The notes below the pieces were generated by a model that had not been told where the DNA came from, did not search any database, and saw nothing but the letters and a program-made list of their open reading frames with translations. 64,000 bases of DNA from Roseateles puraquae (GTDB lineage: Bacteria; Pseudomonadota; Gammaproteobacteria; Burkholderiales; Burkholderiaceae_C): NCBI RefSeq assembly GCF_002205845.1, contig NZ_NISI01000001.1, positions 124,001-188,000 on the forward strand, read 5' to 3'. Position numbers and translations under genes: made by a program. Within the stretch, counting starts at the first letter, position 1; each line of letters begins with the position of its first letter. Shown piece by piece: positions 15,064-35,646 of the stretch.

Positions 15064-15078
15064 CAAGAGTGATTCTCA
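15064..15078 (-). promoter_or_regulatory. Fur-box-like operator upstream of fbpA
   Basis: On the minus strand TGAGAATCACTCTTG resembles the 7-1-7 Fur consensus (TGATAATNATTATCA). The first half matches at 6 of 7 positions and the second half at only 3 of 7. It lies 41-55 bp upstream of the fbpA start, in the space between that gene and the terminator of the RND operon. It fits iron repression of the binding protein; no equally good site is seen in the 34-bp fbpC/fbpB gap. Confidence 0.5.
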
Positions 15079-15110
15079 TTTGTGCAGCAAGCCCTTCTGC
15101 GTCGACGGGA

Positions 15111-15144
15111 ATGAAAAAGGGCCGACCGTTTGCACGGCCGGCCC
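15111..15144 (-). terminator. Rho-independent terminator of the RND efflux operon
   Basis: On the minus strand a stem GGGCCG-x-CCGT/ACGG-x-CGGCCC (plus 15119-15144, one A-C mismatch, 4-nt loop) is followed by TTTTT (plus 15114-15118). It starts 32 bp after the stop of the RND permease gene. Confidence 0.85.
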
Positions 15145-15176
15145 AAGCGCGAACGCGCTCGAGGGGATCGGGGAGA

Positions 15177-18419: not shown

Positions 18420-18429
18420 GATGCGGCCC

Positions 18430-19602
18430 TCACTGCTGGACCGGCGCCGAGCCGGCGGCGGCCGCGCTCGCGACCTTGGACGACTTGCTCGACACGACCT
18501 GCGCCTTGTCCCCTTCGCGCAGGTTGTCGAAGCGCGCCGCCAGCACCTGGGCCTCGGGCTTCAACCCGCTGAGGATCTCGATGCGGCCTTCACGGGCGTC
18601 GCTGCGCCCGGTGGTGACGATGCGGCGGGCGAGCGCGCCGTTCTCGATCATCCAGACCTGCTCCTGGCCCGAGTTGCGGCTCACGGCCGCCATCGGCACG
18701 GTCAGGCGCTGCGTGTCGTCCGGCAGCACCACCTTGGCGGCGGCGTACTGGCCGGCGCGGTACAGCTCCTTGGGGTTGTCCAGCACCAACGTCACGCCGA
18801 TGGACCGCGTGCCGGGCTCGGCCGCGGGCGCGATGCGGGCGATGCGCGCCTCGACGGGCTCGTCCACGCCTTCAACCTTTACCTGCACCGCCATGCCGGG
18901 CTTCAGGCGGCTGACCTCGTGCGTGCCCACCAGGCCGGCCAGTTCCAGCTTGGCCAGATCGACGATGGTCAGGATCTGCTGCTCGGCGGCGAGCTTTTCG
19001 CCGGGCACCGCATGGCGCTTGGCCACCACGCCGTTGATGGGTGAGACCAGCGCCGCCTGACGCAGTGTCACCTGGCTGGTGTCGAGCTGGGCCTTGGCCG
19101 CCAGCCAATTTGCGCGGGCGGATTCATAGGCGGCACGGGAGTTGTCGAGGGCCGTCTGGGCGATGAAGTTCTTGCTCGCCAGGCCCTCGTTGGCCTTGTG
19201 CGCGCGTTCGGCCTGCTCCATCTGGGCACGCATGGCCTCGACGCTGGCGTTGCGCTCGGCAATGCGGTAACGGAGTTCTTCGAGGTCGACCTGGCCCAGG
19301 GCCTGGCCCGCCTTCACGCGGCTGCCCTCGCCCACCGCCAGGTTGAGCAGGGTGCCGTTGGACTTGGCCCGCACGACCACCGTGCCCGGCGCCACCAGTG
19401 GGCCGCTGAACTCGATCTGGGCCGGCATGGCCACGAGCGTGGGCTTGACGACCTCGCTGGCCACGAACTCCAGCGCCGGCTTGGCCTTGTCCTCACCGGG
19501 CTTCTTCGGCGCGTCGCCCTTGCTGGCCATCACCGCCACCCCGGCACCGCCCACCACCACGACCACGGCCGCGATGACACCCATCCTGAAAGACTTCCGC
19601 AT
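18430..19602 (-). CDS. RND efflux periplasmic adaptor (membrane fusion protein)
   Basis: A 390-residue adaptor that links the RND pump to an outer-membrane channel. One N-terminal hydrophobic segment (about residues 8-26) anchors or exports it. A split biotinyl-lipoyl domain brackets an alpha-helical hairpin at about 105-190 rich in Ala, Glu and Gln, followed by beta-barrel segments ('AGLVGTHEVSRLKPGMAVQV'). The tail is Ser/Ala-rich. ATG 19602 gives a normal beginning with two Arg/Lys before the hydrophobic segment; ATG at residue 7 is an alternative. It is the first gene of the efflux operon, 10 bp ahead of the pump. Confidence 0.9.
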   Translation of the reverse strand: MRKSFRMGVIAAVVVVVGGAGVAVMASKGDAPKKPGEDKAKPALEFVASEVVKPTLVAMPAQIEFSGPLVAPGTVVVRAKSNGTLLNLAVGEGSRVKAGQALGQVDLEELRYRIAERNASVEAMRAQMEQAERAHKANEGLASKNFIAQTALDNSRAAYESARANWLAAKAQLDTSQVTLRQAALVSPINGVVAKRHAVPGEKLAAEQQILTIVDLAKLELAGLVGTHEVSRLKPGMAVQVKVEGVDEPVEARIARIAPAAEPGTRSIGVTLVLDNPKELYRAGQYAAAKVVLPDDTQRLTVPMAAVSRNSGQEQVWMIENGALARRIVTTGRSDAREGRIEILSGLKPEAQVLAARFDNLREGDKAQVVSSKSSKVASAAAAGSAPVQQ

Positions 19603-19750
19603 GGCTCCCCCAAACGCTCTCTGATACAGACCTTTGCAGTCTAGAAATCAGGGCTTGGCGGCGCAGCGCGCGTGAGACGAAACGCGGAAACGGTGGGCTG
19701 AGCTGCACCGGCCGGCGATCAGCCCGGCCGGGCGTGCGACGAACTGCAGC

Positions 19751-20854
19751 TCAGGCGGGACGGGCGCCTGGGATGGGGGCGATGGGCAGGGCCACGTCCC
19801 CGCACTGCGCCCTATGACGAAGGGCATGGTCCATCAGCACCAGGGCCAGCATGGCCTCGGCGATGGGTGTGGCGCGGATGCCCACGCAGGGGTCGTGGCG
19901 GCCGAAGGTCTCGACCGTGGACGGGTTGCCGGCGCGGTCGATGCTGGCCTTGGGGCTGCGGATGGAACTGGTGGGCTTGATCGCGATCTCGGCCACGATG
20001 TCCTGGCCGGTGGAGATGCCGCCGAGCACGCCGCCGGCGTTGTTGCTGGCAAAGCCGTCCGGGGTCAGCTCGTCGCCGTGCTGCGTGCCCTTCTGGGCGA
20101 CCGACGCGAAGCCGGCGCCGATCTCCACGCCCTTGACGGCATTGATGCCCATCAGCGCGTAGGCAATGTCGGCGTCGAGCTTGTCGAACAGGGGCTCGCC
20201 CAGGCCCACCGGCACGCCGGTGGCCTCCACGCGGATGCGGGCGCCGACCGAGTCGCCGGCCTTGCGCAGTGCATCCATGTAGGCCTCGAGCTCGGCGATC
20301 TGGCTGGCGTTGGCGGCGAAGAAGGGGTTGTTGCCGACGTGCTGCCAGCCTTCGAACCCAATCGCAACCTCGCCCAACTGCGTCATGCAGCCGCGGAACT
20401 CGGTGCCATAGGCCTCGCGCAGCCACTTGCGGGCCACCGCACCGGCACCCACCATGGGCGCGGTCAACCGGGCCGAGGAGCGGCCACCGCCGCGCGGGTC
20501 GCGCACGCCGTACTTGCGCCAATAGGTGTAGTCGGCGTGACCCGGGCGGAAGGTGTCGAGGATATTGCCGTAGTCCTTGCTGCGCTGGTCGGTGTTTTCG
20601 ATCAGCAGGCAGATCGGCGTGCCCGTGGTGACGCCTTCATAGACGCCCGACAGGATGCGCACCGCATCCGGCTCGTTGCGCTGCGTGACGTGCCGGCTGG
20701 TGCCGGGGCGGCGCCGGTCCAGTTCGGGCTGGATGTCGGCCTCGCTCAACGCCAGCCCGGGCGGGCAGCCGTCGATGACGCAGCCGATGGCCGGCCCGTG
20801 GCTTTCGCCGAAGTTGGTGACGCGGAAGAGTTCGCCGAAGGTGCTGCCTGACAT
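19751..20854 (-). CDS. aroC: Chorismate synthase
   Basis: A 367-residue shikimate-pathway enzyme that converts EPSP to chorismate using reduced FMN. Signature segments are all present: '[18 protein letters not shown]' near the N-terminus, '[14 protein letters not shown]' followed by '[12 protein letters not shown]' in the middle, and '[18 protein letters not shown]' near the C-terminus. ATG 20854 ('[10 protein letters not shown]') gives the family's normal start; the frame is open nine codons farther. It stands alone, with a terminator for the neighbouring CBS gene just upstream. Confidence 0.96.
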
Positions 20855-20884
20855 AGGCCTCAAGTTTAGGCGGCCCGCCAATGC

Positions 20885-20909
20885 AAAAGCGGCCCCGCAA
20901 GGCCGCCTT
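20885..20909 (-). terminator. Rho-independent terminator after the CBS-domain gene
   Basis: On the minus strand a 6-bp perfect stem GCGGCC/GGCCGC with a 6-nt loop (plus 20889-20906) is followed by TTTT (plus 20885-20888). It lies 16 bp beyond the stop of the CBS gene and 31 bp before the aroC start, so it separates the two units. Confidence 0.7.
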
Positions 20910-20924
20910 ATCAGCTTGCGAATC

Positions 20925-21392
20925 TCAGAGCTTGGGTTCGGCCTCGGCCGTGTTCTCCTCGACCGGCCAGTCGCGGATGTAGGCCTTGAGCATGCGGTTC
21001 TCGAAGTCCTGGCTGTCGACCACCGCCTTGGCGACGTCGTAGAACGAGATGACGCCCATCAGCGTGCGGCCGTTCATGACGGGCATGTAGCGCGCGTGGC
21101 GGCCGAGCATCATGCGGCGCACCTCGTCGATCTCGGTCTCGGGCGTGCAGGTCAGCGGCGCGTCGTCCATGACGGTGCGGACGATGGTGGTGCCCACCGC
21201 GCCGCCGTTCTTGACCACGGCCTGGATGACCTCGCGGAAGGTCAGCATGCCGACCAGATCGCCGTGCTCCATGACCACCAGGGAGCCGATGTCGCGCTCG
21301 GCCATGACGTCCAGGGCTTCCTTCAGTGCCTGGTCCGGCGAGACGGTGAACAGGGTGCCGCCTTTGACACGCAGGATATCGACGACTTTCAT
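20925..21392 (-). CDS. CBS-domain protein (tandem CBS pair)
   Basis: A 155-residue protein made almost entirely of two CBS repeats, at about residues 8-65 and 80-135. The repeats are recognisable by '[26 protein letters not shown]' (in two parts) and '[20 protein letters not shown]'. Such pairs bind adenosyl ligands and usually act as energy or redox sensors, but no catalytic domain is attached here. ATG 21392 has GGAG 6 bp upstream. It is divergent from the metY-like gene over about 70 bp. The exact role is unknown. Confidence 0.88.
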
Positions 21393-21464
21393 GGTTGTCT
21401 CCGGGACGAGTTGCCCGGGCAACATAGCACACAATGCCCGCGACTCCACCCCATAGAAAACACC

Positions 21465-22769
21465 ATGCCAGGCTTCGACACCCTCGCCCTGCATGCCGGC
21501 GCCACGCCCGACCCGGGCACCGGCGCGCGGGCCACGCCGCTGCACCTCAGCACCTCCTTCGTCTTCGAGAACAGCGAGCATGCCGCGTCGCTGTTCAACA
21601 TGGAGCGCTCCGGCCACGTCTACAGCCGGCTCTCCAATCCGACGACTGCGGTCTTCGAGGAACGCATGGCCGCGCTGGATGGCGGCATCGGGGCGATCGC
21701 CACCGCCTCCGGCCAGGCGGCGTTGCACCTGGCCATCTCCACGTTGATGGGGGCCGGCGGCCACATCGTCGCCAGCACCGCGTTGTACGGCGGCAGCCAC
21801 AACCTGTTGCACTACACGCTGCGCCGTTTCGGCATCGAGACCACCTTCGTGAACCCGCGCGACCTCGACGCCTGGCGGGCTGCCATCCGGCCCGAAACCC
21901 GCCTGCTGTTCGGCGAGAGCTTGGGCAATCCGGGTCTGGACGTGCTGGACATCCCCGCCGTCAGCGCCCTGGCCCATGAAGCCGGCCTGCCACTGCTGGT
22001 GGATGCCACGTTCACGACACCCTATCTGCAGCGCCCGGCCGAGCTGGGTGCCGACCTGGTCTACCACTCCGCCACCAAGTTCCTCTGCGGCCACGGCACG
22101 GTGGTGGGCGGCGTGCTGGTGGATGCCGGCAGCTTCGACTGGGCTGCAGCGCACGAGCGCAACGGCCGCTTTGCCACGCTGTGCGAGCCCTACGAGGGCT
22201 TTCACGGCATGGTGTTTGCCGAAGAGAGCACCGTGGGCGCCTTCCTCCTGCGCGCCCGCCGCGAGGGCCTGCGGGACTTCGGCGCCTGCATGAGCCCGCA
22301 CACCGCCTGGCTGATGCTGCAGGGGCTGGAGACCCTGCCGCTGCGCATGGCCCGGCACGTGGCCAACGCCCAGGCGGTGGCGGAGTTCCTGGCGGCGCAG
22401 CCGCTGGTGGCCAAGGTCAGCTACCCGGGGCTGGCCTCGCACCCCGATCACGCCCTGGCCCAGCGCCTGCTGCCGCGCGGGGCAGGCGCGGTGTTCTCCT
22501 TCGACCTCAAGGGCAGCCGCGAGCAAGGGCGTGCCTTCATCGAGTCGCTCAAGCTCTTCTCTCACCTGGCCAACGTGGGTGACGCCAAATCCCTGGTCAT
22601 CCATCCGGCGAGCACCACCCACTTCCGGATGGACGACGACGCCCTGGCGCGGGCGGGCATCGGCCCGGGCACCATCCGGCTGTCCATCGGCCTGGAAGAC
22701 CCGGCCGACCTGATCGACGACCTCAAGCGTGCCCTCAAGGTGGCGGCCAAGGCGGGAGGTGCCGCATGA
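21465..22769 (+). CDS. metY: O-acetylhomoserine sulfhydrylase-type PLP enzyme
   Basis: A 434-residue member of the Cys/Met-metabolism PLP family. The PLP lysine is Lys205 in 'YHSATKFLCGHGTVVGG'. 'YSRLSNPTTAVFEERMAALDGG' (in two parts) and 'ASGQAALHLAI' complete the cofactor pocket. The length and the beginning 'MPGFDTLALHAG' match the MetY class, which makes homocysteine from O-acetyl- or O-succinylhomoserine and sulfide; cystathionine synthase or lyase activity cannot be excluded from sequence alone. The frame is open far upstream on the other gene's antisense, so ATG 21465 was chosen by homology. The stop overlaps the next gene as ATGA. Confidence 0.86.
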   Translation: MPGFDTLALHAGATPDPGTGARATPLHLSTSFVFENSEHAASLFNMERSGHVYSRLSNPTTAVFEERMAALDGGIGAIATASGQAALHLAISTLMGAGGHIVASTALYGGSHNLLHYTLRRFGIETTFVNPRDLDAWRAAIRPETRLLFGESLGNPGLDVLDIPAVSALAHEAGLPLLVDATFTTPYLQRPAELGADLVYHSATKFLCGHGTVVGGVLVDAGSFDWAAAHERNGRFATLCEPYEGFHGMVFAEESTVGAFLLRARREGLRDFGACMSPHTAWLMLQGLETLPLRMARHVANAQAVAEFLAAQPLVAKVSYPGLASHPDHALAQRLLPRGAGAVFSFDLKGSREQGRAFIESLKLFSHLANVGDAKSLVIHPASTTHFRMDDDALARAGIGPGTIRLSIGLEDPADLIDDLKRALKVAAKAGGAA

Positions 22770-25009: not shown

Positions 25010-25037
25010 GCAGCCAGCGTAGCAGCAAAGGCCGTGG

Positions 25038-25523
25038 CTAATGGGCGCCGACTTCGTCCTCCCGGGGCTTGCGTGACAAGGACTGCGCATAGGCATACAC
25101 CATCGCACCGCGCGAACGCACACCGAGCTTGCAGTAGATGGTCTTGAGGTAGGAGCGCACCGTGAACTCGCTGATGTGCAGCCGCGCGCTCACCTGCTTG
25201 GTCTGCAGGCCGCTGCAGATGAGCTGCACGATCTGCAGCTCGCGATTGGTCAGCAGCCGGTGCAGCTCGGCACCCTCCGCAGAGGCGGCCTCGGCCGAGC
25301 GGTCCGGCACCAGCGCGTAGCGGTGACCGGCCCACTCGAAGTGCCCGATCTCGTCGGGCAGATAGCACTGACGCAGCCGCGCGCTGCCCGGGCGGCTGCG
25401 ATGGTCCGGCAGTCGTTCATCCACACACACGACGCGCAAGAGATGACCACCGAGCTCCAGCGTGGTCACCGGCGCGCCAGCCGGCATCTCGGCGTCATCG
25501 GGTTCATCACGGGGTGCATTCAT
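25038..25523 (-). CDS. Short LuxR-type transcriptional regulator
   Basis: A 161-residue protein with a LuxR-type helix-turn-helix at about residues 90-145 ('LTNRELQIVQLICSGLQTKQ' then 'SEFTVRSYLKTIYCKLGV'). The N-terminal 85 residues match no receiver or autoinducer domain that I recognise; they include 'LPDEIGHFEWAGHRYALVPD'. ATG 25523 has GGAGG 7 bp upstream. It is divergent from the nine-gene operon beginning at 25907 and upstream of mipA on its own strand, so it is the best candidate regulator of that operon. Without a receiver domain, its activity may depend on its own level or on a ligand of the N-terminal part. Confidence 0.85.
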   Translation of the reverse strand: MNAPRDEPDDAEMPAGAPVTTLELGGHLLRVVCVDERLPDHRSRPGSARLRQCYLPDEIGHFEWAGHRYALVPDRSAEAASAEGAELHRLLTNRELQIVQLICSGLQTKQVSARLHISEFTVRSYLKTIYCKLGVRSRGAMVYAYAQSLSRKPREDEVGAH

Positions 25524-25906
25524 GCCATGCCTCCGTCCGCGGTTGGGGGCGCCATCGCTTGCTGGCCATGTCGTGTCTCCCTGTCCTCATCGCTCGGCGG
25601 CGGCCGCATCAGAGGCCGGCGCATTGTTTCGAAATCACGCGGCGCCGGCACCTGGGATCTTGGGGGTCTGCAGACGTGAAAAACCACTGGCAACGCGTGT
25701 CCGGGATCATGCGCCGGCGCTCGCGCATCGTCCGTCCCTCCTAGCGATGCCCACAAACGAGGGGGCACGGATGCAGGCCCCGCTTTGTGCTGGCGCCCTG
25801 CGGCGAGTGCCGATGGGCTCGGCGCAAATCACGTTTTGTCGAAGCCCATCGCGGTGCCTAGAGTGACCTCACCGGTGCAAGCCTGCTCCGGCCTGGAGGC
25901 CACGAC
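25524..25906 (+). promoter_or_regulatory. 383-bp divergent control region with a sigma-70-type promoter and an inverted repeat
   Basis: This gap between the LuxR-type gene and the nine-gene operon holds no convincing gene. Near its right end a -35 TTGTCG (25836-25841) and a -10 TAGAGT (25859-25864) are spaced by exactly 17 bp. This would start transcription near 25871, 36 nt before the first ATG, which has GGAGG at 25895-25899. A perfect 9-bp inverted repeat CGATGGGCT (25811-25819) / AGCCCATCG (25843-25851) has one arm upstream of the -35 and the other inside the promoter spacer, a good position for an operator. The left 250 bp show no clear signal. Confidence 0.6.
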
Positions 25907-27103
25907 ATGGACCACAACCCCTTCGACAACGACCTGATGGACGAGGCCGACAGCCTCGATGGTGCCGATGCAGGCGACAGCGCCGGCGAGGGTTTCGATG
26001 AAGCCGACGGCAGCGACGGCATGGACCTGATGGCGGATGACGCCGACCTCTCCGACGCCGACGGCGCGGGCGATGGCTACGACGGCTTCGACGCTGCCGA
26101 CTACGGCGACGAGGCCGCCGACGGCAGCGATGCGATGGCCCTGTGGGATGCCTTCGAGGACGAAGTCGCCGACGGCCTGGATGCCGCGGATGAAGACGAA
26201 TTCCTCGGCCGCATCCTCGGCGGCCTGGGGCGTGCGGGCGGCCTGCTGCGCCGCGGCGTTGGTGGTGCGGCCGGGCTCGCGGGCCGCGTGCAAGGCGTCG
26301 CACGGCAGGCCCAGCGGGTGGCCGGCGGCATCGGCCGCGTGGCCGGCCAGGTCTCACCGGCCGCGCAAGCCGCAGCGCGCCTCGCGCAGATGCTCGGGGC
26401 CTCCGGCGTGGCCGGCGGGCTGGGCAGCCTCGCCAGTGGCGCCCAGCGCGTGCAAGGCTGGGCCGGCACCGCGGGGCGCCTGGCCGGCGGCGTGGCGCAG
26501 ACCGCCGGCAGCGCCCAGGGCGTGCTCAGCCAATTGAGCCAGCTCATCGGCAGCGGCGGCAACGAGATGGACGACTTCGACGCGCTCGCCGACGCCTTCG
26601 AGGAAGGTGAAGACGAAGCGCTGCCCGCCGTGGTGGCCCTGGCGGCACGGGCTGCGGCGCGTGGCCTGGGCTTTCGCAACATGGCACATCTGGCGCAGGC
26701 CGGGCGCCGCGCGCTGGTGCGCGGCACGGCCTCGGCCGCGCGGGAGCTGGTGCGTCACCAGGGCCGTGGCGCCATCCGCGCCCTGCCCCGCCTGGCGGCC
26801 TCCGCCGCCCGCGTGGCCACCCGCCAGGCGCCCACGCCGCAACGTGCCGCCCAAGCCGTGCGCCGCGGCCTGCCCGCCACTGCACGACGTGTGGCCCAGC
26901 AGCCGCAGACCCTGCGCCGGCTGGCACGGCCGGTGGCGCCGCAAGCCGGCGCGCGCGCCGCTGAGCCGCCCGGCGCCGGGCCTGCCGCCGGCCCGCTCAC
27001 CCGCGACAACCAGGTCGGCCGCGGCCAACCGAGCCGCCGCATCCGCGGCGCCCGCACCTTCTACATCGATGGCCCCGTCGCCCTGACGGTCACGCCGCGT
27101 TAA
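25907..27103 (+). CDS. Lysine-free acid/base-polarised protein, first of two paralogues (unknown function)
   Basis: A 398-residue protein without any Lys or Cys. Residues 1-100 are Asp/Ala/Gly/Glu-rich with no Arg or Lys (first Arg at 102). Residues 98-220 are Gly/Ala-rich with spaced Arg and look like amphipathic helices ('EFLGRILGGLGRAGGLLRRG'). A second acidic patch at 219-237 ('EMDDFDALADAFEEGEDEA') precedes an Arg/Ala-rich region (245-350) with 'RAAQAVRRGLPATARR'. The C-terminus is 'FYIDGPVALTVTPR'. The next gene encodes a paralogue with the same layout. There is no signal peptide. The RBS is GGAGG, 7 bp before ATG 25907. Similar acidic plus Arg/Ala-rich low-complexity proteins occur in other bacteria as far as I recall, but no function is known to me. 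Confidence 0.85.
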   Translation: MDHNPFDNDLMDEADSLDGADAGDSAGEGFDEADGSDGMDLMADDADLSDADGAGDGYDGFDAADYGDEAADGSDAMALWDAFEDEVADGLDAADEDEFLGRILGGLGRAGGLLRRGVGGAAGLAGRVQGVARQAQRVAGGIGRVAGQVSPAAQAAARLAQMLGASGVAGGLGSLASGAQRVQGWAGTAGRLAGGVAQTAGSAQGVLSQLSQLIGSGGNEMDDFDALADAFEEGEDEALPAVVALAARAAARGLGFRNMAHLAQAGRRALVRGTASAARELVRHQGRGAIRALPRLAASAARVATRQAPTPQRAAQAVRRGLPATARRVAQQPQTLRRLARPVAPQAGARAAEPPGAGPAAGPLTRDNQVGRGQPSRRIRGARTFYIDGPVALTVTPR

Positions 27104-27131
27104 CCCCGGAATCAACCGCAAGGAGATCACC

Positions 27132-28205
27132 ATGGACCGATTCGAAGCCGACGTGATGGACGACCTGATGTCCGACGCCGCCGAGGGCCCTGCCGCACGG
27201 CACGGCAATGCCTATGACGAGTTCGACGAGTACGACGAGGGCGATGAATTCGACGGCGCCGACGAGGGCGACGATGAATTCCTCGGCCGACTGCTGGGCG
27301 GCATCGGTCGCGTGGCCGGGGGGCTCCTGGGCGGCGGCGGTGGCGATGGGTTTGACGAGGGCGACGAGTTCGACGGCTTCGATGAAGGCGACGAGTTCGA
27401 TGGCTTCGACGCGGCCGACGAGGACGGCGGCGACGATGCCTTCGAAGCCGCCGTGGCCGATGCGATGGATGCGGGCGACGGCGACGAGTTCTTCCGCCGC
27501 CTGGGCCGCATCGCCCGCACGGTCGGCCGCGGCATTGGCAGCGTGGCCCGCGTCGTGGGGCCCATCGCCAGCATGATCCCGATCCCCCAGGCCCAGCTCA
27601 TCGGCCGCCTGGCCAATGTGGCCGGCCGGCTGATGGCCGATGGTGCCGACGAGTTCGAGGCCTTCGACGAGTTCGTCGACGGGCTGGATGAGGACGGCAT
27701 CGATGCCGCGGCGCCGGTGCTGGCCGGCATGGTCATCCGCCGCGCACTGCCGGGCGTGGCTCGCGCTGCCGCGCCGGTGCGGCGCGCGGCCGTGCGAGCT
27801 GTCAGCCAGGCGGTGCGCACCGCCGTGCGTCGTCAGGGCGCTCCGGCCGCCCGCGCGGTGGCCCGCGCCGTGACCGCCACGCGCCGCGTCGTGCAGCGCC
27901 GCAACCTGCCGCCGCGGCAGGCCGTGCAGGCGGTGCGCCGCGTGACCCGCCAGGTCGCCACGCGCCCGCAGGCCGTGCAGCGCCTGTCGCGCCCGCTCGT
28001 CGCGCCGGCACGCCGGGCCACACCCCGCGGCCAGGCCGCACAGGTGGTGGCGCGGCAGGTGGCCCCGATTGCGCGCCAGGTCGCTGTCACCACTGGTCGT
28101 CCGCTCACGGCGGGGCGCGCGGGCGGTCATGTCTGCACGCAATGCCGGCGCAACCGGCGGCTGCTCGCCCGCGGCCCCGTGGTCATCAACCTGCGCTGCC
28201 GCTGA
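27132..28205 (+). CDS. Lysine-free acid/base-polarised protein, second paralogue (unknown function)
   Basis: A 357-residue paralogue of the preceding protein, also completely lysine-free. The N-terminal part repeats 'DEFDG' and 'FDEGDEFDG' units (residues 38-92), interrupted by the shared 'EFLGRLLGGIGRVAGGLL' (49-66). A third acidic cluster lies at 173-190. The C-terminal half is Arg/Ala/Val-rich and aligns with the first paralogue ('RQAVQAVRRVTRQVATRPQA', 262-281). It ends with three Cys, two in 'HVCTQC' (333-338) and one in 'INLRCR', which might bind a metal or form a disulfide. The RBS AGGAG lies 6 bp before ATG 27132, and the gap to the previous gene is 28 bp. Duplication within the operon is evident; the function is unknown. 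Confidence 0.85.
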   Translation: MDRFEADVMDDLMSDAAEGPAARHGNAYDEFDEYDEGDEFDGADEGDDEFLGRLLGGIGRVAGGLLGGGGGDGFDEGDEFDGFDEGDEFDGFDAADEDGGDDAFEAAVADAMDAGDGDEFFRRLGRIARTVGRGIGSVARVVGPIASMIPIPQAQLIGRLANVAGRLMADGADEFEAFDEFVDGLDEDGIDAAAPVLAGMVIRRALPGVARAAAPVRRAAVRAVSQAVRTAVRRQGAPAARAVARAVTATRRVVQRRNLPPRQAVQAVRRVTRQVATRPQAVQRLSRPLVAPARRATPRGQAAQVVARQVAPIARQVAVTTGRPLTAGRAGGHVCTQCRRNRRLLARGPVVINLRCR

Positions 28206-28243
28206 ACCCGCCGCACCAACCAGCCCACGAGGAGCACCGAGTC

Positions 28244-29506
28244 ATGGATGTGCGCCGATTCCTGCAGGCCAAGATCACGGGCCTGTCTGCCCGCCTGTCG
28301 CGGCTGGCGCGCGTGGACAACGCCTTTGTCGGCCTGCGACCGCAGGACATGCCGTACGCGCCTTCGCCTGAGCACTTCCAGGCGGCCAATGCGCGGCTGT
28401 CGGCGGTGGAGCAACGCATCCATGACCGCTTCGAGCAGCTGCGCACCGATGCCGGACGCCGAGCCCCGCAGCGGGTGCTGGTGGACATTGCGCTCGTCGA
28501 GCGCGAGTTGGACCGTGCCCGGCGCCTGTTCGGCATGTTCTACGAAGTGTTCGCGCAGCGCGGCACGGCGTTTGGGCCGTCGCTCGCGGCGCATGACAGC
28601 ATCGCGGCTGACTGCTACACCGCCATCCGCCAGGCCGCGCCGCGCCTGTTCGATGCGCCGCTGCTCAAGCCGGTGTCGTACATGGAGCATGGCTATTCGC
28701 CGGCCACCATGCGGCGCGGCGTGGCGCTGTCGCGGCTGCTGGGCGAGGCCAACCCCTTCCCGCTGATCCGCATTCCCTGGGACCGCGACCAACCCTGGCA
28801 GAGCGTCTTCCTGCACGAGGTGGCACACAACATCCAGGCCGATGCCGGCATCTGGCAGGAGAACCGCCAGGCCGTGCTGCGCCGCGTGATGGGCCGCGCC
28901 GGCAGCCCGATGCTGGCGTCCGTCTACGGGCGCTGGCACAAGGAGATCTTTGCCGACCTGGCCGCCATCCTGCTCGGCGGCCCCGCCGCAGCTTGGGGCA
29001 TGGCCGACTTCCTGGCTCACCCGCAACCGCGCACCATGACCTTCCGCCCCGGCGGCGCGCACCCCACGGCCTATCTGCGGGTCTACCTGTTGGCCGAGAT
29101 GCTGCGTCGCATGGGCTTCCAGGCCGATGCCACCCGGCTCCTGCGCGTCTGGCAAGCGCTGTACCGCGCCGATACCGGGCACCGCATCCCCGCCGGACTG
29201 ATGAGCAGCGCGCCGCGGCTCATTCCGGAGGTGGTGGACGAGATCGCCTTCCAGACCCGGCGCAACCTGGCGCAGCAGGCGTTGGCCGACGTCATTCGCT
29301 TCGACGCCGGCGACCAGGACGCGATCCTCGCCGGCGCGCGCCGCCTGCAGGCTGGCAAGCCCGTGGACCTGCCGCCCCGCCATGTCGTCAGCGCGGCTCA
29401 CTATGCGCTGGAGAGCGGGCGCATTGCGCCGCAGCGCCTGGCCCACGCCGTGACCGACCAGCTCAGCGGCAGCCGCACCCGTGCGCCGCTGCGGCTGGTG
29501 GCTTGA
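28244..29506 (+). CDS. Putative zinc metallopeptidase (HExxH, gluzincin-like)
   Basis: A 420-residue protein with a zinc-peptidase signature: 'FLHEVAHNIQAD' gives HEVAH at 191-195. Glu234 in 'WHKEIFADLAAILLGGPAA' is well placed as the third zinc ligand. 'HPTAYLR' (273-279) recalls the HP..R motif that follows the active site in M48-like families. Residues 1-190 are mostly helical and have no recognised domain. No signal peptide or membrane segment is seen, so it should act in the cytoplasm unless exported by another route. GGAG lies 9 bp before ATG 28244. Its place after the two polarised proteins suggests they may be substrates, which is inference. I do not recognise the exact family. Confidence 0.72.
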   Translation: MDVRRFLQAKITGLSARLSRLARVDNAFVGLRPQDMPYAPSPEHFQAANARLSAVEQRIHDRFEQLRTDAGRRAPQRVLVDIALVERELDRARRLFGMFYEVFAQRGTAFGPSLAAHDSIAADCYTAIRQAAPRLFDAPLLKPVSYMEHGYSPATMRRGVALSRLLGEANPFPLIRIPWDRDQPWQSVFLHEVAHNIQADAGIWQENRQAVLRRVMGRAGSPMLASVYGRWHKEIFADLAAILLGGPAAAWGMADFLAHPQPRTMTFRPGGAHPTAYLRVYLLAEMLRRMGFQADATRLLRVWQALYRADTGHRIPAGLMSSAPRLIPEVVDEIAFQTRRNLAQQALADVIRFDAGDQDAILAGARRLQAGKPVDLPPRHVVSAAHYALESGRIAPQRLAHAVTDQLSGSRTRAPLRLVA

Positions 29507-29533
29507 AACCGAACCCCACACCGAGGACTCCCC

Positions 29534-31504
29534 ATGGCCCACTCCAACACCCTGCCCATCAGCACCGCGCAAGGCGGCCAGGACCGCCTGGTGCTCGACA
29601 ACCTGATCCGCCGGGAGCTCAAGGTCGGCGACCCCAGCGACCCCGCGCAAGTGGCCCAGGCGCTGCTGACCCGCTACAGCGCCGACCCCCGCGCCCAGGC
29701 CATCGGCCAGGAGTCGCGTGGCCTGCCCTTCCTGCAGGCGGCCAGCTCGGCCCCGCCGGTCGTGCAGATGTTGACCGCTGCCGGCGGCGCCGAATGGCAG
29801 CAGGCCCTGGACGACATCAACCAGGACCTGCAGCACCTGAGCACCAGCGCCCTGGTGAAGGACGTGGCGCCCGAGATCCGCGGCTGGGGCCAGGCCATCC
29901 GCACGACGCTGTCCGAAGGCTATGACGCCGCCCGCTTTGGCCTGGACCCGCGCAACCGCGACAAGGGCTTCGCGATGCGACGCCAGCTCAACGACTATGC
30001 GCGCCTGGCCCGGCTGGTCGGCGCGCACACGCCGGCGATGCTGACGGACTTCCGCAAGCTCGCGCAGAGCCTGGACGAGGCGGCCAACCTGCTGCTGGTG
30101 ATCATGGGCGAGGCGCTCGCCAATGTGGGTTTTGGCGGCGGCCGCTACATCCCGCAGGTGGCCTATGCCGATCTGCAGACCCGCCGCGACGCCGTCATCT
30201 ACGCGCTGCGCAACCTGGTCGGCAGCACCCAGCAGGCCTACGGCCCCGACGAATGGCCGCGCGGGCTGGACGCCTACCGCCAGCTCAACGACCTGCTGGA
30301 GGCCCAGGGTCAGAACGACCTGCGTTCCCTGCTGATCGAGACCGAGCTGGCCCGCACCATGGACGAGCTGGTGCGCCGCGGCGGCGACAACACCGCCGAC
30401 GGCCTGCGCTCGGTCGGCTCCACCTCGCTGCTGACGCTGGAGCGCTTCCGCCGACTGGTGGCCGTGAGCCGGCGCGGCATCAGCCCGGAGTCGCCTGCGC
30501 TGTACGCCTACCTGGAAGCGCTGCAGCTATTCGCTTCAGCCTTCGACTCCGCTGGCGGCTTCCGGCTGATGAAGATCGCCCGGCCGCCACTGCTGTTCTA
30601 CGGCCTGTACGGCAGCACGGGGCTGGACGATGCCGACCGCCGCATCGTCGACCTGGCCACCCGGCGCGGCCTGGTGGCGGACGCCATCGACTGCTTTGCC
30701 AGCAGCTGCTGCCAGGGCAACCGGACCTGCCTCGTGCTGCTGGACAAGCTGCTGTATGACATCGACCGCGCCATCGACCTATACGGCCTGGGCTTTGCCA
30801 ACTTCGGCAGCACCGAGCGGCGCGCGTCGGCCTACGCCTTCATGATCGACCAGGTGCTGCTGGCCGCGCCCTGCCGCGCGCCGGGCGCCAACCAGCCCAG
30901 CCTGTTGCCGGCCGAGCTGGTGACCCAGCTCAACGCCATCGCCGACGAGCTGCGCCCCGACCTCACGCTGGCCAACGACCCGGTCTTTGCGGATGCCGTG
31001 GCCCGTGCCCAGCGCCTGGCCGCGCAGCTCGGCACCCTCATGCAGGCGCGCGGCATCGCCGACCCGGACCAGCTGCGCCTGCGCGGCACCGCAGCGCCGC
31101 CGCAGGTCTGGGACATCGAGGACCTGGCCGAGCTGAACACCGCCATCTACCGCGGCAGCGCCGTCGTACCGCCCGGGCTGGTGCCCGACAGCGACCTGCA
31201 GCTGGACGCCTACCTCGGCGTCATCGAGCAGGAGCTCTGCCTGCAGCTCGACATGGAGCGCAACTGGAGCCAGCTGGTGCACAGCATGGTGGCCAACTGC
31301 GCACAGATCGATGTCTCGCTATCGCAGCTGCAGGCCGTGGTGCAGGCCGCGGTGCGCAGCGTGGCCGGCCATGACTGCCGCTCGGGCGCCGCCATCAACC
31401 TGCCGCCGACCCTCGAAACCTCGCTCGATTCGCTGGTGGACAGCGTGGAGCGCACGGGCCTGGGTCGACCGCATCGCACGCTGTCCTGGCAGCGCCGCAC
31501 CTGA
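29534..31504 (+). CDS. Large conserved-looking protein of unknown function
   Basis: A 656-residue protein, the largest of the operon, with no domain I recognise. The composition is mainly helical. There is no signal peptide and no membrane segment. A cysteine cluster lies at residues 387-399 ('CFASSCCQGNRTC'), followed by hydrophobic helix-like stretches, with further Cys at 447, 569, 589 and 615. The motifs 'GGGRYIPQVAYADLQTRRDA' and 'ARPPLLFYGLYGSTGLDDAD' look like folded globular segments, not low complexity. GAGGA precedes ATG 29534, and the gap to the peptidase gene is 27 bp. The clean reading frame and codon pattern support a real gene. The function is unknown; it could be a structural or scaffold component of the system. 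Confidence 0.75.
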   Translation: MAHSNTLPISTAQGGQDRLVLDNLIRRELKVGDPSDPAQVAQALLTRYSADPRAQAIGQESRGLPFLQAASSAPPVVQMLTAAGGAEWQQALDDINQDLQHLSTSALVKDVAPEIRGWGQAIRTTLSEGYDAARFGLDPRNRDKGFAMRRQLNDYARLARLVGAHTPAMLTDFRKLAQSLDEAANLLLVIMGEALANVGFGGGRYIPQVAYADLQTRRDAVIYALRNLVGSTQQAYGPDEWPRGLDAYRQLNDLLEAQGQNDLRSLLIETELARTMDELVRRGGDNTADGLRSVGSTSLLTLERFRRLVAVSRRGISPESPALYAYLEALQLFASAFDSAGGFRLMKIARPPLLFYGLYGSTGLDDADRRIVDLATRRGLVADAIDCFASSCCQGNRTCLVLLDKLLYDIDRAIDLYGLGFANFGSTERRASAYAFMIDQVLLAAPCRAPGANQPSLLPAELVTQLNAIADELRPDLTLANDPVFADAVARAQRLAAQLGTLMQARGIADPDQLRLRGTAAPPQVWDIEDLAELNTAIYRGSAVVPPGLVPDSDLQLDAYLGVIEQELCLQLDMERNWSQLVHSMVANCAQIDVSLSQLQAVVQAAVRSVAGHDCRSGAAINLPPTLETSLDSLVDSVERTGLGRPHRTLSWQRRT

Positions 31505-31529
31505 ACCGCCACCGCAAGAGGAGCCCACC

Positions 31530-32177
31530 ATGCCAGACGATTTCGATCTCCGGTACACGCCGAAGTTCTACGAGAGCTTCGGGAAAGTCATCCAGCTCGA
31601 CCTGGGCAGCACGGCGCAGGACGTGGCCACGACACGCGAGCGCGTGACCGAGCTGCCGCAGGCCCTGGGCGACGTGCTCAAGCCCACGGCCGACAGCATT
31701 GCCGCGCTGCGCACCAGCTGGTCCCAGGACCTCGCCGCGGCCGTCACGCAGCTGAAGGCCAGCCACGCCGGCGACATCGGCACCGCACGCGACGCGCTGA
31801 AGCAGGACCTCCAGGCAGGGATCCAGCAGGTGCTGGCCGCCGTCCACACCACAACGCCGGCGCCGGTGCCCCAGGCGCTGCGGTTGAACGTGCGATCGGC
31901 CGACGTGATCCGGCCGCTGACGCAGGTGTTGACGCTGGGCGTGGATGCCGCCCCCGGCCAGCCCGACAAGCAAGCCAAGTCGGAGTGGGGCGAGAACGTC
32001 ACGCTGAAGAAGCTGGCCGAATCCGTCGCCGCCGAGGCAGCCCTGCTCGACGGCGAGCTGCACAAGCGCTTCCTGGCGGCCTTTCGCGTCTTCAGCAGCA
32101 AGTCGACCGAAGAACGCCACCAGCGCTATGCCGAGGTGCATGCGCTGATCGAGGACATCGCAGCCCAGCTGAGCTAG
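31530..32177 (+). CDS. Unknown protein of the nine-gene operon (215 aa)
   Basis: A 215-residue protein starting 'MPDDFDLRYTPKFYESFGKV'. Residues 25-105 are strongly helical with regular Ala/Leu/Gln spacing and could form a coiled coil. A Pro-rich linker (109-115) leads to a segment 'LRLNVRSADVIRPLTQVLTL' and a charged helical tail. There is no membrane segment. ATG 31530 was chosen for its AGAGGAG ribosome binding site, 6-7 bp upstream; the frame is open farther but overlaps the preceding gene. No family is recognised. Confidence 0.72.
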   Translation: MPDDFDLRYTPKFYESFGKVIQLDLGSTAQDVATTRERVTELPQALGDVLKPTADSIAALRTSWSQDLAAAVTQLKASHAGDIGTARDALKQDLQAGIQQVLAAVHTTTPAPVPQALRLNVRSADVIRPLTQVLTLGVDAAPGQPDKQAKSEWGENVTLKKLAESVAAEAALLDGELHKRFLAAFRVFSSKSTEERHQRYAEVHALIEDIAAQLS

Positions 32178-32220
32178 TCCACCGCCTCCACCGAATGCAA
32201 CGCCACGCCGGAGCGACACC

Positions 32221-33309
32221 ATGAGCTTCCAGACCACCGAAACCATCCAGCGTCTGTGGGAGACCTTCCTGCGTGACCAGTTGGCGGCCATGCCGCCGGC
32301 CGAGCGGCAGAAGTTCGAGCAGCCGTTCGAGCAGCGCTTCAGCGAACTGCTCAAGGGCGCCGCCAACGGCGAGAACAGCCGCGACGGCTTTCTCGACCTG
32401 GTCGGCCTGGGCGACAACGGCCCGCCGGACTTCGACAAGATCGCCTACCCGCACATCACGCCTGACTTTGACGACGCCGTCGTGCCCAGCCAGCTGCATG
32501 CCGCTGCCGAGCTGTACTACATCTACCAACACGAACGCATGAAGATCTTCGAGGTGGTGGACACGCTGCTGCGGCTGTTCCGGCTGGGCAAGATGCGTAT
32601 CCAGCGCGGCCCGGGGGCCCGAGGCTTGTATCTGCTCGAGAAGTGGCAGCCCCTGCGCTACAAGCGCGCCGACCGCATGGTGGCCTACCGCCGCGCCTTC
32701 AACTACGGCACGGCGCAGGCGCCGGCCGGTGCGGTGGTCAACCGCAACTTCCACCGGCAGATGGTGGGCTTCATGGTGTCGCTGGGCCAGTACTTCCGCG
32801 ACCTGCTGATCGGCGAGGTCATCCGCGGCGGCCAGGTCATCGAGCAACGGCCCTTCGGCAGCGTGGCCACGGTGCAGCGCATCGGGCTGGACCTGCGCTA
32901 TGCGCTGGACCGCTCCACCTACGGCAACATCTTCTCGCTGGCCATGGAGACGGGTCATCACCTCAAGACCGTGCTGCAACTGCTGGATGCGCCGGACATC
33001 AAGAAGGCCTTCGACGCCAACACCAAGTGGGACGTGGTGGAGATCGTCTCCAACCGCTACCTCGGCGGTGTGGCCGAGCCCAGCCAGCGCGCCAAGATGG
33101 CCGAGAGCGGGCGGCGCATCCTGCAGTTCGTGGCGGACAACGACTTCAAGACGGCCACCGACCCCATCCTGTTCCAGAGCGTCGTGCGCCCGATGGGCGC
33201 GCATGCCGAAGCCTGGGTGGCGGCCTACCGCATGACGCCCGAGGGCCGGGGCTTCCCCGGCGTGACCCCGGCGCTGCAGAGCGTGCTGGGCATCCGCCAG
33301 GCCGCCTGA
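32221..33309 (+). CDS. Unknown protein of the nine-gene operon (362 aa)
   Basis: A 362-residue soluble protein rich in aromatic and charged residues, with no signal peptide. Characteristic segments are 'QLHAAAELYYIYQHERMKIF', 'RLGKMRIQRGPGARGLYLLE', 'VVNRNFHRQMVGFMVSLGQY' and 'STYGNIFSLAMETGHHLKTV'. These look like a well-folded, mostly helical protein, but I recognise no family. The RBS GGAG lies 7 bp before ATG 32221. It is followed after 12 bp by the next gene. Its even codon use and tight packing support it as a genuine operon member. Confidence 0.74.
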   Translation: MSFQTTETIQRLWETFLRDQLAAMPPAERQKFEQPFEQRFSELLKGAANGENSRDGFLDLVGLGDNGPPDFDKIAYPHITPDFDDAVVPSQLHAAAELYYIYQHERMKIFEVVDTLLRLFRLGKMRIQRGPGARGLYLLEKWQPLRYKRADRMVAYRRAFNYGTAQAPAGAVVNRNFHRQMVGFMVSLGQYFRDLLIGEVIRGGQVIEQRPFGSVATVQRIGLDLRYALDRSTYGNIFSLAMETGHHLKTVLQLLDAPDIKKAFDANTKWDVVEIVSNRYLGGVAEPSQRAKMAESGRRILQFVADNDFKTATDPILFQSVVRPMGAHAEAWVAAYRMTPEGRGFPGVTPALQSVLGIRQAA

Positions 33310-33321
33310 CGGGGGATGGCC

Positions 33322-33822
33322 ATGGGCACGAGCTGGGATGCTGCGGTCATCGACGATGCGTTGGCCGGCACCGACGCCGGGATCGATGCGCTCACCCAGC
33401 TGCCTCGCCCGCAGCGGGGGTTGTCGCCCAACCTGGCGCACTGGCATGTCATCGGCAGCCTGGTGAACGACCTGCGCCGGTGGTTCCCGGGCACGCAGGT
33501 CCGGGTGGACAAGTCCCGTGGCGCGGGCCAGCCCGGCGCGCGCTTGCGGCCCGACGCCAACTTCAACAACCCGCGCCGGGGTGGCGCGCCGACCCACATC
33601 GAGGTCGACACCCAGCCGGCCCAGATGCGCCGTCATATCCATGCCCGCAACCGGGCCCTGCGCAATGTCTTTCTGCAGGTGGACCCCGCCAGCGGCGCGC
33701 TGCTGCGCAAGCTCGTCTACCCGCCAGGCGCCCCCCGCCCGCAGCTCGACCGGCGCGGCACGCAGACCGCCCCGGTGCGACTGCGGCCGACGGATGTCTT
33801 CGATGAATTCGACGGAGGTTGA
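33322..33822 (+). CDS. Unknown 166-aa protein with a faint PD-(D/E)XK-like pattern
   Basis: A 166-residue protein. ATG 33322 was chosen because GGGGGA lies 5 bp upstream; an in-frame ATG at 33316 would sit on that ribosome binding site. The middle reads 'GARLRPDANFNNPRRGGAP' then 'THIEVDT', giving Pro-Asp at 77-78 and Glu94-x-Asp96. This recalls the PD..E-x-K spacing of PD-(D/E)XK nuclease-fold proteins, but the catalytic Lys is missing, so activity is doubtful. It is strongly basic around residues 62-112. The C-terminus 'DVFDEFDGG' resembles the 'DEFDG' repeats of the second polarised protein. The family is not recognised. Confidence 0.7.
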   Translation: MGTSWDAAVIDDALAGTDAGIDALTQLPRPQRGLSPNLAHWHVIGSLVNDLRRWFPGTQVRVDKSRGAGQPGARLRPDANFNNPRRGGAPTHIEVDTQPAQMRRHIHARNRALRNVFLQVDPASGALLRKLVYPPGAPRPQLDRRGTQTAPVRLRPTDVFDEFDGG

Positions 33823-33824
33823 CC

Positions 33825-34589
33825 ATGGGTGCAAGCGACCTGCGCGTGACCGTCGACGGCGTGAAGCTGCGCTGCGTGCTGGACCCGGCCCTGGTGCTGG
33901 GCCATGCCTGCGGTCGCCCACTGGCCCTTGGGCTCACCCGGGTGTTCGAGGCCTGGCTGCCTCGCTCCTTCTGGCGGGTGCTGGACGCCAGCGACTTGAT
34001 CAGCCTCGACACCGAGGCGGCTCCCTGGCTGCATCCGCTCGCATTGAACGACTGGACGGCGCTGCGCGACGGCACCGACGCCGGCTCCTGGCCGCTGCGC
34101 TGGGTCGGCGACAACCTGCACGAGTCGCAGCTGCGCAGCAGCGTGGACGACTCGCTGCTGGAGCGCTTCGAGCGCCACGCGGAGGCTCTGCAGGCGCCGG
34201 AGCCCACTGACGCTGGCCTGGGCTGGCAGTGCAGCTTCGATGCGGTCAGCAGCGCGCACGATGCGCTGGCGCTGTCGGCGGCCCTGGATGGGGCCTTGCT
34301 GCTGTGCCAGGCCCCCGACGGTGAAACGCCCCCGGGGCCAGTGCTGGCCCTCGCTCGCCTGGGGCACCAGCCACTGGAGTTGTCACCGGACGAAAGCCGC
34401 AGCCTGATGGCCGCCGAACGGCTGTTCGTGCGGCAGGCCGTGGCGGCGGCCGGGCTCGCGGCTCAGCTGCAGTCGCTCGGCCACCTGTGCATCGTGCACG
34501 CCCTGACCTGGCCGGCTGCCAGCGAGGCGGCCAACGACGACGGCCATGACCCCTGGCATCACAGCCAGTCCTGGTGGTACCGCCTCTGA
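33825..34589 (+). CDS. Unknown protein of the nine-gene operon (254 aa)
   Basis: A 254-residue protein with no recognised domain. ATG 33825 was chosen because GGAGG (33814-33818) lies 6 bp upstream; an in-frame TTG at 33819 is less likely. It begins 2 bp after the previous stop, so the two are almost certainly translated together. The composition is Ala/Leu/Trp-rich and acidic overall, with helical segments 'LDDSLLERF'-like near 108-125 and 'SRSLMAAERLFVRQAVAAAG' at 191-210. The tail is His/Trp-rich ('HDPWHHSQSWWYRL'). No signal peptide or membrane helix is evident. Confidence 0.7.
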   Translation: MGASDLRVTVDGVKLRCVLDPALVLGHACGRPLALGLTRVFEAWLPRSFWRVLDASDLISLDTEAAPWLHPLALNDWTALRDGTDAGSWPLRWVGDNLHESQLRSSVDDSLLERFERHAEALQAPEPTDAGLGWQCSFDAVSSAHDALALSAALDGALLLCQAPDGETPPGPVLALARLGHQPLELSPDESRSLMAAERLFVRQAVAAAGLAAQLQSLGHLCIVHALTWPAASEAANDDGHDPWHHSQSWWYRL

Positions 34590-34605
34590 ACGCCGGAGCC
34601 CGACG

Positions 34606-35646
34606 ATGGATGCTGAGACTCGCTCGCCCCCCCCCGCCGCAGGCGGCCCCCGCGTGAACCGCGATGAACTCGTGGCCGTCACCGTGCAGGGCCAGATCGC
34701 TCATCCGGTCGGCCGCGCCACGCCCTACCGCATCGGCTACGACGGCGTGCCCCGCGTGCTGCCGGGCACCGGGGGTATCGTGCTGAACCGGCGCATCGGC
34801 GACCTCTGCGTGGGCCTGGCGGGCGACCACATCGAGCCGGGCGTGGCCCTGCACAACAACAGCCGCGAGGTCATCGGCCCGCGCGACGGCCCGAACAACG
34901 CGCTCATCACCTATGCCTGCGTGGGCAACCGCGCCACGGTGCTCAGCGGCCTGGCGCGCGGCCAGCAGGGCTGGGTGACCGGCAAGCACGGCGGCGTGAA
35001 CCATGTGCTGGTGGACTTCCCAACCGCGGTGCTGCAGCGGCTGGCGATCGGCGACCGCATCGGCATCACCTCCATCGGCCAGGGGCTGCGGCTGCCGCAG
35101 CACCCGCGCATCGAGCTGATGAACTGCGCGCCAGGCCTGATCGCCCGCTGGGGCATCACCGCGCGCGATGGCCGCCTGTATGTGCCCGTCACCCATGAGG
35201 TGCCCGCACGGCTCATGGGCTCCGGCCTGGGCAAGAACACCGCCTGGCGTGGCGACTACGACATCCAGCTGGCCGACCGCGCCGCCCGGGAGCGCTACCG
35301 GCTGGGCAGCCTGCGCTTCGGCGACTTCGTGGCCATCACCGACGCCGACACCCGCCGCGGCCCCGTCATGCGCGAGGGCCGGGTGACCATCGGCGTCATC
35401 GTGCACGGCGACAGCACCGTGAGTGGCCACGGCCCGGGCGTGACGCCGCTGCTCACCGGGCCCGCCGAGTTGCTGCGTCCGCGGCATGACACGAATGCCA
35501 ACCTGGCGGCGGTGCTGGGCGTGCGCCAACCGGTGCCGCCGCAGGAGCGCCTGACGCTCGCCGAGCGCGACCGGCGCCTGCGCTGCCGCGTGCGCGAGGC
35601 GCCGCCTCACCTGGCCTTCAGGACGTCAGCTGGCGTTGAAGGTTAG
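34606..35646 (+). CDS. DUF4438-family protein
   Basis: A 346-residue protein that matches the DUF4438 pattern as I recall it: 'NRDELVAVTVQGQIAHP' near the start, then 'PYRIGYDGVPRVLPGTGGIV' (40-59), 'GDHIEPGV' (73-80) and 'YACVGNRATVLSG' (103-115). The family has structural representatives but no established function. ATG 34606 has GGAG 7 bp upstream; the frame is open farther into the previous gene. It is the last gene of the nine-gene operon. Its last 29 bp overlap tail to tail with the convergent tdh gene, so the final residues 'AFRTSAGVEG' are coded on both strands. Confidence 0.78.
   Translation: MDAETRSPPPAAGGPRVNRDELVAVTVQGQIAHPVGRATPYRIGYDGVPRVLPGTGGIVLNRRIGDLCVGLAGDHIEPGVALHNNSREVIGPRDGPNNALITYACVGNRATVLSGLARGQQGWVTGKHGGVNHVLVDFPTAVLQRLAIGDRIGITSIGQGLRLPQHPRIELMNCAPGLIARWGITARDGRLYVPVTHEVPARLMGSGLGKNTAWRGDYDIQLADRAARERYRLGSLRFGDFVAITDADTRRGPVMREGRVTIGVIVHGDSTVSGHGPGVTPLLTGPAELLRPRHDTNANLAAVLGVRQPVPPQERLTLAERDRRLRCRVREAPPHLAFRTSAGVEG

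Follow-up and report, generated by a model that had tools for sequence, protein, structure and literature searches.

A mobile gene cassette of Roseateles puraquae encodes two charge-polar paralogues beside a putative metallopeptidase

Precursors of defensins and cathelicidins, in which an anionic propiece balances a cationic part, are short and exported. In bacterial gasdermin (bGSDM) operons a pore protein is encoded together with proteases, and some of these operons also carry trypsin-like and amidase genes (PMC9612521). The Caulobacter proteins CdzC and CdzD are 84–86 residues long, leave the cell by type I secretion, are accompanied by an immunity gene, contain glycine zippers and have a suggested action on membranes (PMC5380434). 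Here we describe a cassette of nine genes, g1 to g9 in order, within a 64-kb stretch of Roseateles puraquae DNA (the window); L and G numbers denote the loci and genomes compared with it. Its first two genes encode adjacent paralogues with an acidic front and a cationic back, and the third encodes a putative metallopeptidase. We tentatively propose that g1 and g2 are a latent, protease-released pair of membrane-active effectors acting inside the cell, which would share the logic of gasdermins and not their family membership.

The cassette resembles each of these systems in part. An acidic front facing a cationic back is the likeness to defensin and cathelicidin precursors, but the cationic part of g1 and g2 runs to more than 150 residues and neither protein showed an exported start. 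In bGSDM operons the gene of a latent protein stands beside a protease gene (PMC9612521), and here the putative protease gene g3 stands beside g1 and g2. As to differences, g1 and g2 have no Pfam or PADLOC match and are two charge-polar, Gly/Arg-rich paralogues, and the caspase-like protease of bGSDM operons is replaced by an HExxH candidate. No caspase-like Pfam match was found in g1–g9; other proteases also occur in bGSDM operons (PMC9612521). With the Cdz pair g1 and g2 share adjacency, paralogy and glycine-zipper-like stretches (PMC5380434), but they are about four times longer and charged, have no recognised secretion gene near them and are accompanied by a putative peptidase. No known system is matched, gasdermins and Cdz each failing at least one of the defining features tested. 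As far as our literature searches go the cassette is undescribed; an earlier description may have been overlooked.

The two genes lie on the + strand, g1 at 25907–27103 (398 residues) and g2 at 27132–28205 (357 residues), separated by 28 bp in a region of 75% G+C (GC) content. As a preliminary description of this DNA had reported, they contain no Lys; all 88 basic residues are Arg (40 and 48), and g1 also lacks Cys. The reported absence of basic residues from the first 100 positions of g1 is real, the earliest being at position 102, and is limited to g1, as residues 3 and 23 of g2 are Arg. The C-terminal halves hold most of the basic residues (N-half/C-half, 11/29 in g1 and 12/36 in g2) and the N-terminal halves most of the acidic ones (38/14 and 48/7), an acid-to-base polarity far beyond that of shuffled sequences (z 6.5 for g1 and 7.2 for g2). 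The proteins are indeed duplicates (blastp E 1e-12, 32% over 351 columns) and share the block DEFLGR[IL]LGG[LI]GR, much as had been noted. Their neighbours do use Lys: the seven other g-genes of the cassette hold 39 Lys and 231 Arg (14.4% Lys), and, measured against them, the absence of Lys from 88 basic residues has a P of 1.1e-6, in a test made post hoc and on proteins of odd composition. Comparison with the L004 orthologues, a single genome pair, gave ratios of nonsynonymous to synonymous substitution (dN/dS) of 0.11 for g1 and 0.07 for g2, values that rule out a wrong-frame artefact; the frames look like real genes under purifying selection. Two long antisense open reading frames lie opposite on the − strand (26354–27208, 284 residues; 27090–28142, 350 residues), as expected of sequence with 75% GC. 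Neither protein has a Pfam match, and two NCBIfam matches are both far below cut-off.

The preliminary description had allowed that absent Lys and charge polarity might together be an accident of GC bias, and comparison with homologues separates the two. The polarity stands: it is conserved in 21 of 21 proteins measured (z 6.1–8.5), whether the base is Arg or Lys, and g2 of L031, added after these 21, has a matching layout and no Lys. The Lys half falls, because relatives with the same layout, Rhodobacteraceae and Paraburkholderia among them, use Lys. Sixteen of 22 proteins have none, and the counts elsewhere are 1 in g1 of L005, 25 in L012, 36 in L014, 30 in L030 and 14 in the two L018 proteins together. 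Relative to the other cassette genes of each locus, Lys is depleted at nine of the 13 loci tested (P between 1.3e-3 and 1.9e-8), most strongly in L008 at 51% GC (P 1.9e-8), and not significantly in L012, L014, L018 and L030; the 13 loci are related by descent, so these P values are not independent, and the comparison genes number only three in L008, three in L018 and one in L030. Where Lys is missing, GC bias is thus an unlikely cause, given depletion beyond local composition at 9 of 13 loci. As judged from these sequences, polarity is a family trait, and an Arg-only composition is a lineage choice unexplained by GC alone. Net charge per protein stays between −18 and +1 in all 21, although the halves are strongly charged, and F, Y and W are commoner in the acidic half of every one.

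In g1 an acidic N-terminal part without a basic residue (residues 1–96; 25907–26194) leads, at a DEFL motif, into a Gly/Ala-rich cationic block that is its most conserved part (residues 97–230; 26195–26596), followed by an Arg-rich C-terminal part (26621–27100) that terminates in DGPVALTVTPR. The plan of g2 is the same with a CxxC added. Its N-terminal part (residues 1–117; 27132–27482) consists of acidic DEF/DGF repeats of the FDE/DEGDEF kind and contains the DEFLGRLLGGIGR block. The DEFF boundary, a cationic amphipathic helix and a hydrophobic GPIASMIP stretch come next (residues 118–172; 27483–27647), then a second acidic patch, an Arg-rich tail (residues 193–330; 27708–28121), and the CxxC motif with the strand-like ending GPVVINLRCR (28134–28205). 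The helix, DEFFRRLGRIARTVGRGI, starts at the boundary with a hydrophobic moment of 0.94, and D118, E119 and F120 are invariant in the 18 rows of alignment A2. Between the window and L004, the one pair compared, dN/dS is lowest in the middle block (0.033 in g2 residues 119–205, 0.05 in g1 residues 101–230).

These elements recur across the family. The DEF[FL] boundary is present in 20 of 22 proteins and a C-terminal ending of the form GP[VTA]x[IL]x[IV] in 19 of 22, and CxxC or CxxH precedes the ending in 7/7 g2 proteins of beta- and gammaproteobacterial loci, 0/7 g1 proteins and 0/5 single-copy proteins (L011–L014, L031). GxxxG-type runs number seven in g1 and two in g2, and in the first L018 protein, L030, L039 and L040 a plainer glycine zipper occupies the middle. 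A profile comparison of A2 with A5, the alignment of the L018/L030 group, gave a probability of 97.7 and E 1.3e-12 (hhalign), which supports, short of proof, a tie between A2 and that group, both profiles being compositionally biased.

The gene directly downstream, g3 (28244–29506, + strand), starts 38 bp past the end of g2. In common with HExxH metallopeptidases it has an HEVAH motif (28814–28828) and a downstream KEIFAD, and the H, E and H of the motif together with E233 (numbered without Met, in KEIxAD) are invariant in 11/11 rows of alignment A3. HExxH and the downstream Glu, which would be the third metal ligand, are also kept in 11/11 rows of a wider set that includes L018, L021, L022, L030, L039 and L040. 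It differs from those enzymes in reaching the cut-off of no Pfam or NCBIfam family and in having no PDB relative by sequence or by fold search.

By tblastn the order g1-g2-g3-g4-(g5)-g6-(g7)-g8-g9 is found in L004–L006, L009 and L010, labelled beta- or gammaproteobacteria, and in the incomplete L007 and L008; the alphaproteobacterial loci L011–L014 keep the cassette order with a single g2-type gene, g8 falling below threshold in L012 and L014. L031 (G208) is a further full cassette, whose g2 groups with Mesorhizobium, and L018 (a Paraburkholderia plasmid) and L030 carry polar proteins, g3, g4 and g6 in order, with g3/g6 identity of 31–34% where measured. Other phyla also have relatives of the L018 type, rich in Glu and Phe. 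In the tree the seven beta/gamma g1 proteins and the seven g2 proteins form one clade each (99/97), so the duplication is old and both copies have been kept; the single-copy proteins fall on the g2 side (85/83, not starred), and L018 and L030 sit on long branches of unsure placement. One or more polar genes lie directly upstream of g3 in the window, L004–L014 (L007 partly), L018, L030, L031 and L045, and weaker or diverged ones in L039 and L040.

The cassette is rare. Counting the starting genome each time, g6 was found in 3/398 and g3 in 4/398 genomes of the phylum, and g3 in 2/250 genomes of the order and 2/199 of the order of G433. The four g3 genomes, found with profile A3 among the 398, are that of the window, G208, G138 and G283; the gene upstream is strongly polar in G208 and G138, and in G283 it is acidic, Gly-rich and weaker in polarity, so that it escaped the strict scan. 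Matches to profile A5 lay in 3/398 (G138, G101 and G283), of which only G101 and G283 are new, G138 being one of its own rows; an HExxH gene lies at most 1 kb away in both. With four A3 and three A5 genomes, independent cases of the association are therefore few. Loci were counted once, L003/L004 being G004, L002/L007 G014, L011 G433, L012 G434 and L001 the window genome.

The cassette and an adjacent LuxR-type regulator gene (25038–25523, − strand; Pfam GerE 4.4e-15) form an island at 25026–35625, flanked by a MipA-like gene and an epimerase gene. Of 20 genomes of the genus, among them that of the window, 16 have an empty site with the two flanking genes 40–91 bp apart; the distance is 10,608 bp in the window genome (G000) and 10,488 bp in G004, the cassette is split over contig ends in G014, and G011 is uninformative. 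Homology to the empty sites L046–L048 (blastn) reaches 25025 and resumes at 35626 in the best of three alignments, whose outermost limits we take as the borders; the other two fall short of the left border by 61 and 104 bp and of the right one by 22–23 bp. Filled and empty sites together mean that the LuxR gene and g1–g9 were inserted as one unit. The flanking genes differ in L005 and L009, and the cassette is found in alpha-, beta- and gammaproteobacteria. L007 (JAIPCJ010000043.1, G014:C27) is labelled Methylotenera sp.; its g3 and g6 are 98.8% and 99.7% identical to those of the window, and its genome is placed in the window's genus, so either the label is probably wrong or the bin is mixed.

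The window and L004 are 89–95% identical in g1, g2, g3 and g9 and 84% in g8, against 46% in g4 and 54% in g7, for which L004 is nearer to L005 (65% and 74%) than to the window; L007, of the window's genus, keeps window-type g4 (98%) and g7 (91%), and g6 is 83–90% identical among the window, L004, L005 and L009. The module g4–g7 thus seems, from these identities, to have been exchanged between cassettes (window 29534–33822, L004 12401–16497, L005 12454–16315). Swapped modules are common in conflict systems, and the exchange would fit a specificity module.

A soluble, acid-balanced cationic core encoded beside a putative peptidase is what suggests a latent effector unlocked by cutting. The acidic front would keep the cationic Gly-rich core and Arg-rich tail near-neutral and soluble. 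On a trigger, g3 would cut near the DEF[FL] boundary, assisted in some alphaproteobacteria by a trypsin-type protease, the gene for which lies downstream in L011, L012, L014 and L031. Once released, the cationic part would bind an anionic membrane and disrupt it, the inner membrane of the same cell being the simplest target; gasdermins reach this end by other means. The swapped module g4–g7 would set the trigger. The preliminary description had seen an acidic pro-region masking a cationic, amphipathic part, as in precursors of membrane-active peptides. The masking layout finds support in the conserved polarity, the g2 helix at the boundary, the conserved block and the adjoining putative peptidase. 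The peptide-precursor part fares worse: the helix is off the boundary in most proteins, and in the island no secretion gene, membrane span or exported start was seen, so that a secreted precursor would lack its usual parts. The scan for spans and exported-looking starts, which covered every island protein, measured hydropathy and is not a signal-peptide predictor; maxima were at most 1.51 in cassette proteins, 2.19 in MipA and 2.42 in a membrane subunit control.

Several observations weigh against the latent-effector proposal. In 9/21 proteins the top cationic amphipathic helix begins no more than 15 residues past the boundary (moment 1.06 in L011 and 0.83 in L030); in the other 12, which include 7/7 g1 proteins, it lies elsewhere, mostly in the Arg tail. 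Amphipathicity of the tail is weak in Lys-using relatives (z 1.7–2.9) and absent in g2 of L018 (z 0.5), and the core behind the boundary does not reach the hydrophobicity of a membrane span. The model offers no explanation of the long Arg tail, of the GPVxIxI ending or of the CxxC motif. For g3, a fair AlphaFold model (predicted local distance difference test, pLDDT, 76.5; predicted template modelling score, pTM, 0.78) gave no PDB match at E ≤ 0.001, the best Foldseek E being 1.0 and the VIA-align rows covering mostly the helices of residues 1–100; with no solved fold matched, the name metallopeptidase rests on the motif, and the missing match does not prove that the fold is new. Pfam revealed no sensor domain in the cassette, and no PADLOC model matched g1–g9 at 0.01. 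Genes resembling g3 (L021, L022) or g6 (L019, L020) occur where a scan for polar reading frames gave none, so the partnership is optional for those relatives. Cleavage, toxicity and membrane binding are all predictions from sequence. The frequent displacement of the helix and the g3 and g6 relatives without polar partners make the latent effector a little less likely and a scaffold very slightly more so.

That alternative, the main rival and possible although we regard it as doubtful, is that g1 and g2 are self-assembling scaffolds, the acidic arms of one molecule pairing with the basic arms of the next molecule or of the paralogue in a condensate or particle that would hold g3–g9. It would account for the small net charge of strongly charged halves and for the GPVxIxI-type ending, both of which would serve assembly and the latter of which is left over by the latent-effector model, and it fits the enrichment of F, Y and W in the acidic half, the two paralogues maintained in parallel through seven beta/gamma loci of the tree and partners without a membrane span. 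A scaffold would have no need of a putative protease partner, however; the core and not the arms is most conserved, in the one genome pair compared, and the distant L039 and L040 relatives lack a long Arg tail.

Binding of nucleic acid, with the Arg-rich part holding DNA or RNA and the acidic part competing within the molecule, seems unlikely. The Arg-rich tail and the CxxC or CxxH near the g2 C-terminus in 7/7 beta/gamma loci would suit it, as would a GIY-YIG-type gene in the diverged L040 cassette, but that match barely passes its cut-off (22.9 against 22.6 bits), DEF[FL] is followed by a core that is amphipathic and rich in Gly, and Pfam and NCBIfam give no such domain for g1 or g2. Maturation by g3 of a secreted two-protein bacteriocin like CdzC/CdzD is less credible again: neighbouring paralogues with Gly-rich, GxxxG-bearing stretches are as in Cdz, but proteins of 398 and 357 residues contrast with 84–86 (PMC5380434), and the island's ten genes include none recognised as encoding type I secretion, a membrane protein or an immunity protein, although a soluble immunity protein may be present in the island. 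That the Lys-free composition itself serves to avoid Lys-directed modification or proteolysis is very unlikely, for although depletion exceeds local composition at nine loci, the one at 51% GC included, and lysine deserts have been described both for bacteria that pupylate and for ubiquitin systems (PMC10665810), the loci are related, four of 13 with the same layout show no significant depletion and other cassette genes at the same loci keep their Lys.

The remaining cassette genes, all on the + strand, offer few named families. Those of the swapped middle include g4 (29534–31504, 656 residues) and g7 (33316–33822, 168 residues), both without a Pfam family, g7 having matches only in L004, L005, L007 and L009. 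Between them, g5 (31530–32177, 215 residues) has no Pfam match above cut-off and a sequence match in L007 only, and g6 (32221–33309, 362 residues) is strongly conserved, at 56–90% identity in alignment A1, has no Pfam family above cut-off and gave a poor structural model (pLDDT 39.5). g8 (33819–34589, about 256 residues) likewise has no Pfam family. g9 (34606–35646) is a clear DUF4438 protein and TM1086 relative (PF14505 6.9e-53, PF20999 3.4e-48; 178.4 and 163.1 bits against cut-offs of 24.9 and 27); its solved relatives, 3dcl and 3n99, are named only TM1086 or uncharacterised and so give no function, and a literature search for 'DUF4438' found no paper. For eight of the ten genes in the island Pfam gives nothing above cut-off, and nor does NCBIfam for the six of them that were run against it. 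Between the island borders no secretion gene, immunity gene, recombinase or extra gene was recognised. A known defence system was considered and set aside, g1–g9 having no PADLOC match and the LuxR gene matching only the C-terminal end of two CARF models. Eight of the 11 loci L004–L014 have a LuxR relative close to the cassette, upstream in L004, L005 and L009 and downstream in L006, L010, L011, L013 and L014.

Some neighbouring genes of the relatives deserve mention. L030 has a murein endopeptidase gene as a neighbour. Between g9 and the trypsin gene of L031, a gene at 11151–11840 without a Pfam match encodes a Cys-rich N-terminus (CGCARC...CGCGCGCG) followed by a GIY-YIG-like stretch, and Cys-rich starts are likewise found at L039 14104–14955 and L040 14871–15707. 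The g3-like genes of L021 and L022, two rhizobial plasmids, adjoin CHAT and C25 peptidase genes; the L021 region (8546–28591, a Bradyrhizobium plasmid) is annotated with S8/S53 and M4 peptidases, a patatin, two phospholipase D-like and two CHAT genes beside the g3-like one and looks like an effector or conflict island. S8 peptidase genes occur close to the g6-like genes of plasmids L019 and L020, with an amidase gene also close by on L020. On L020, a Burkholderia pyrrocinia plasmid, several tandem paralogues of one family (15077–21435; FPxFVxxLIxGVFxA by eye) flank the g6-like gene, and the Tolypothrix plasmid L019 has one member of it (20973–22094). A phage origin was considered and set aside: g6 had no match among 50,697 phage records at E values up to 1, nor had the L018 relative; among viral contigs 13 g3 and 46 g6 pattern matches included no confirmed relative. 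A PHROG tape-measure match on g1 (2.3e-5) fell on an Ala/Gly/Arg-rich stretch and was taken as compositional.

The island as a whole may, and we regard this as speculative, be an undescribed, horizontally moving system of intracellular death or defence, in which g1 and g2, inert through their own acidic halves, would form a charge-lock counterpart of gasdermins that a dedicated metallopeptidase unlocks, and g4–g7 would be an exchangeable trigger module. A mobile ten-gene unit, inserted at different sites across classes, with a fixed order, an exchanged middle and eight genes outside Pfam, marks a gap in the catalogue of mobile modules. If true, the charge-lock would be a new way of safely storing a membrane-active protein, fired by proteolysis. 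Even if it is wrong, g1 and g2 provide a natural series, from Arg-only through Lys-rich to Glu/His/Trp-rich, for probing charge segregation in proteins.

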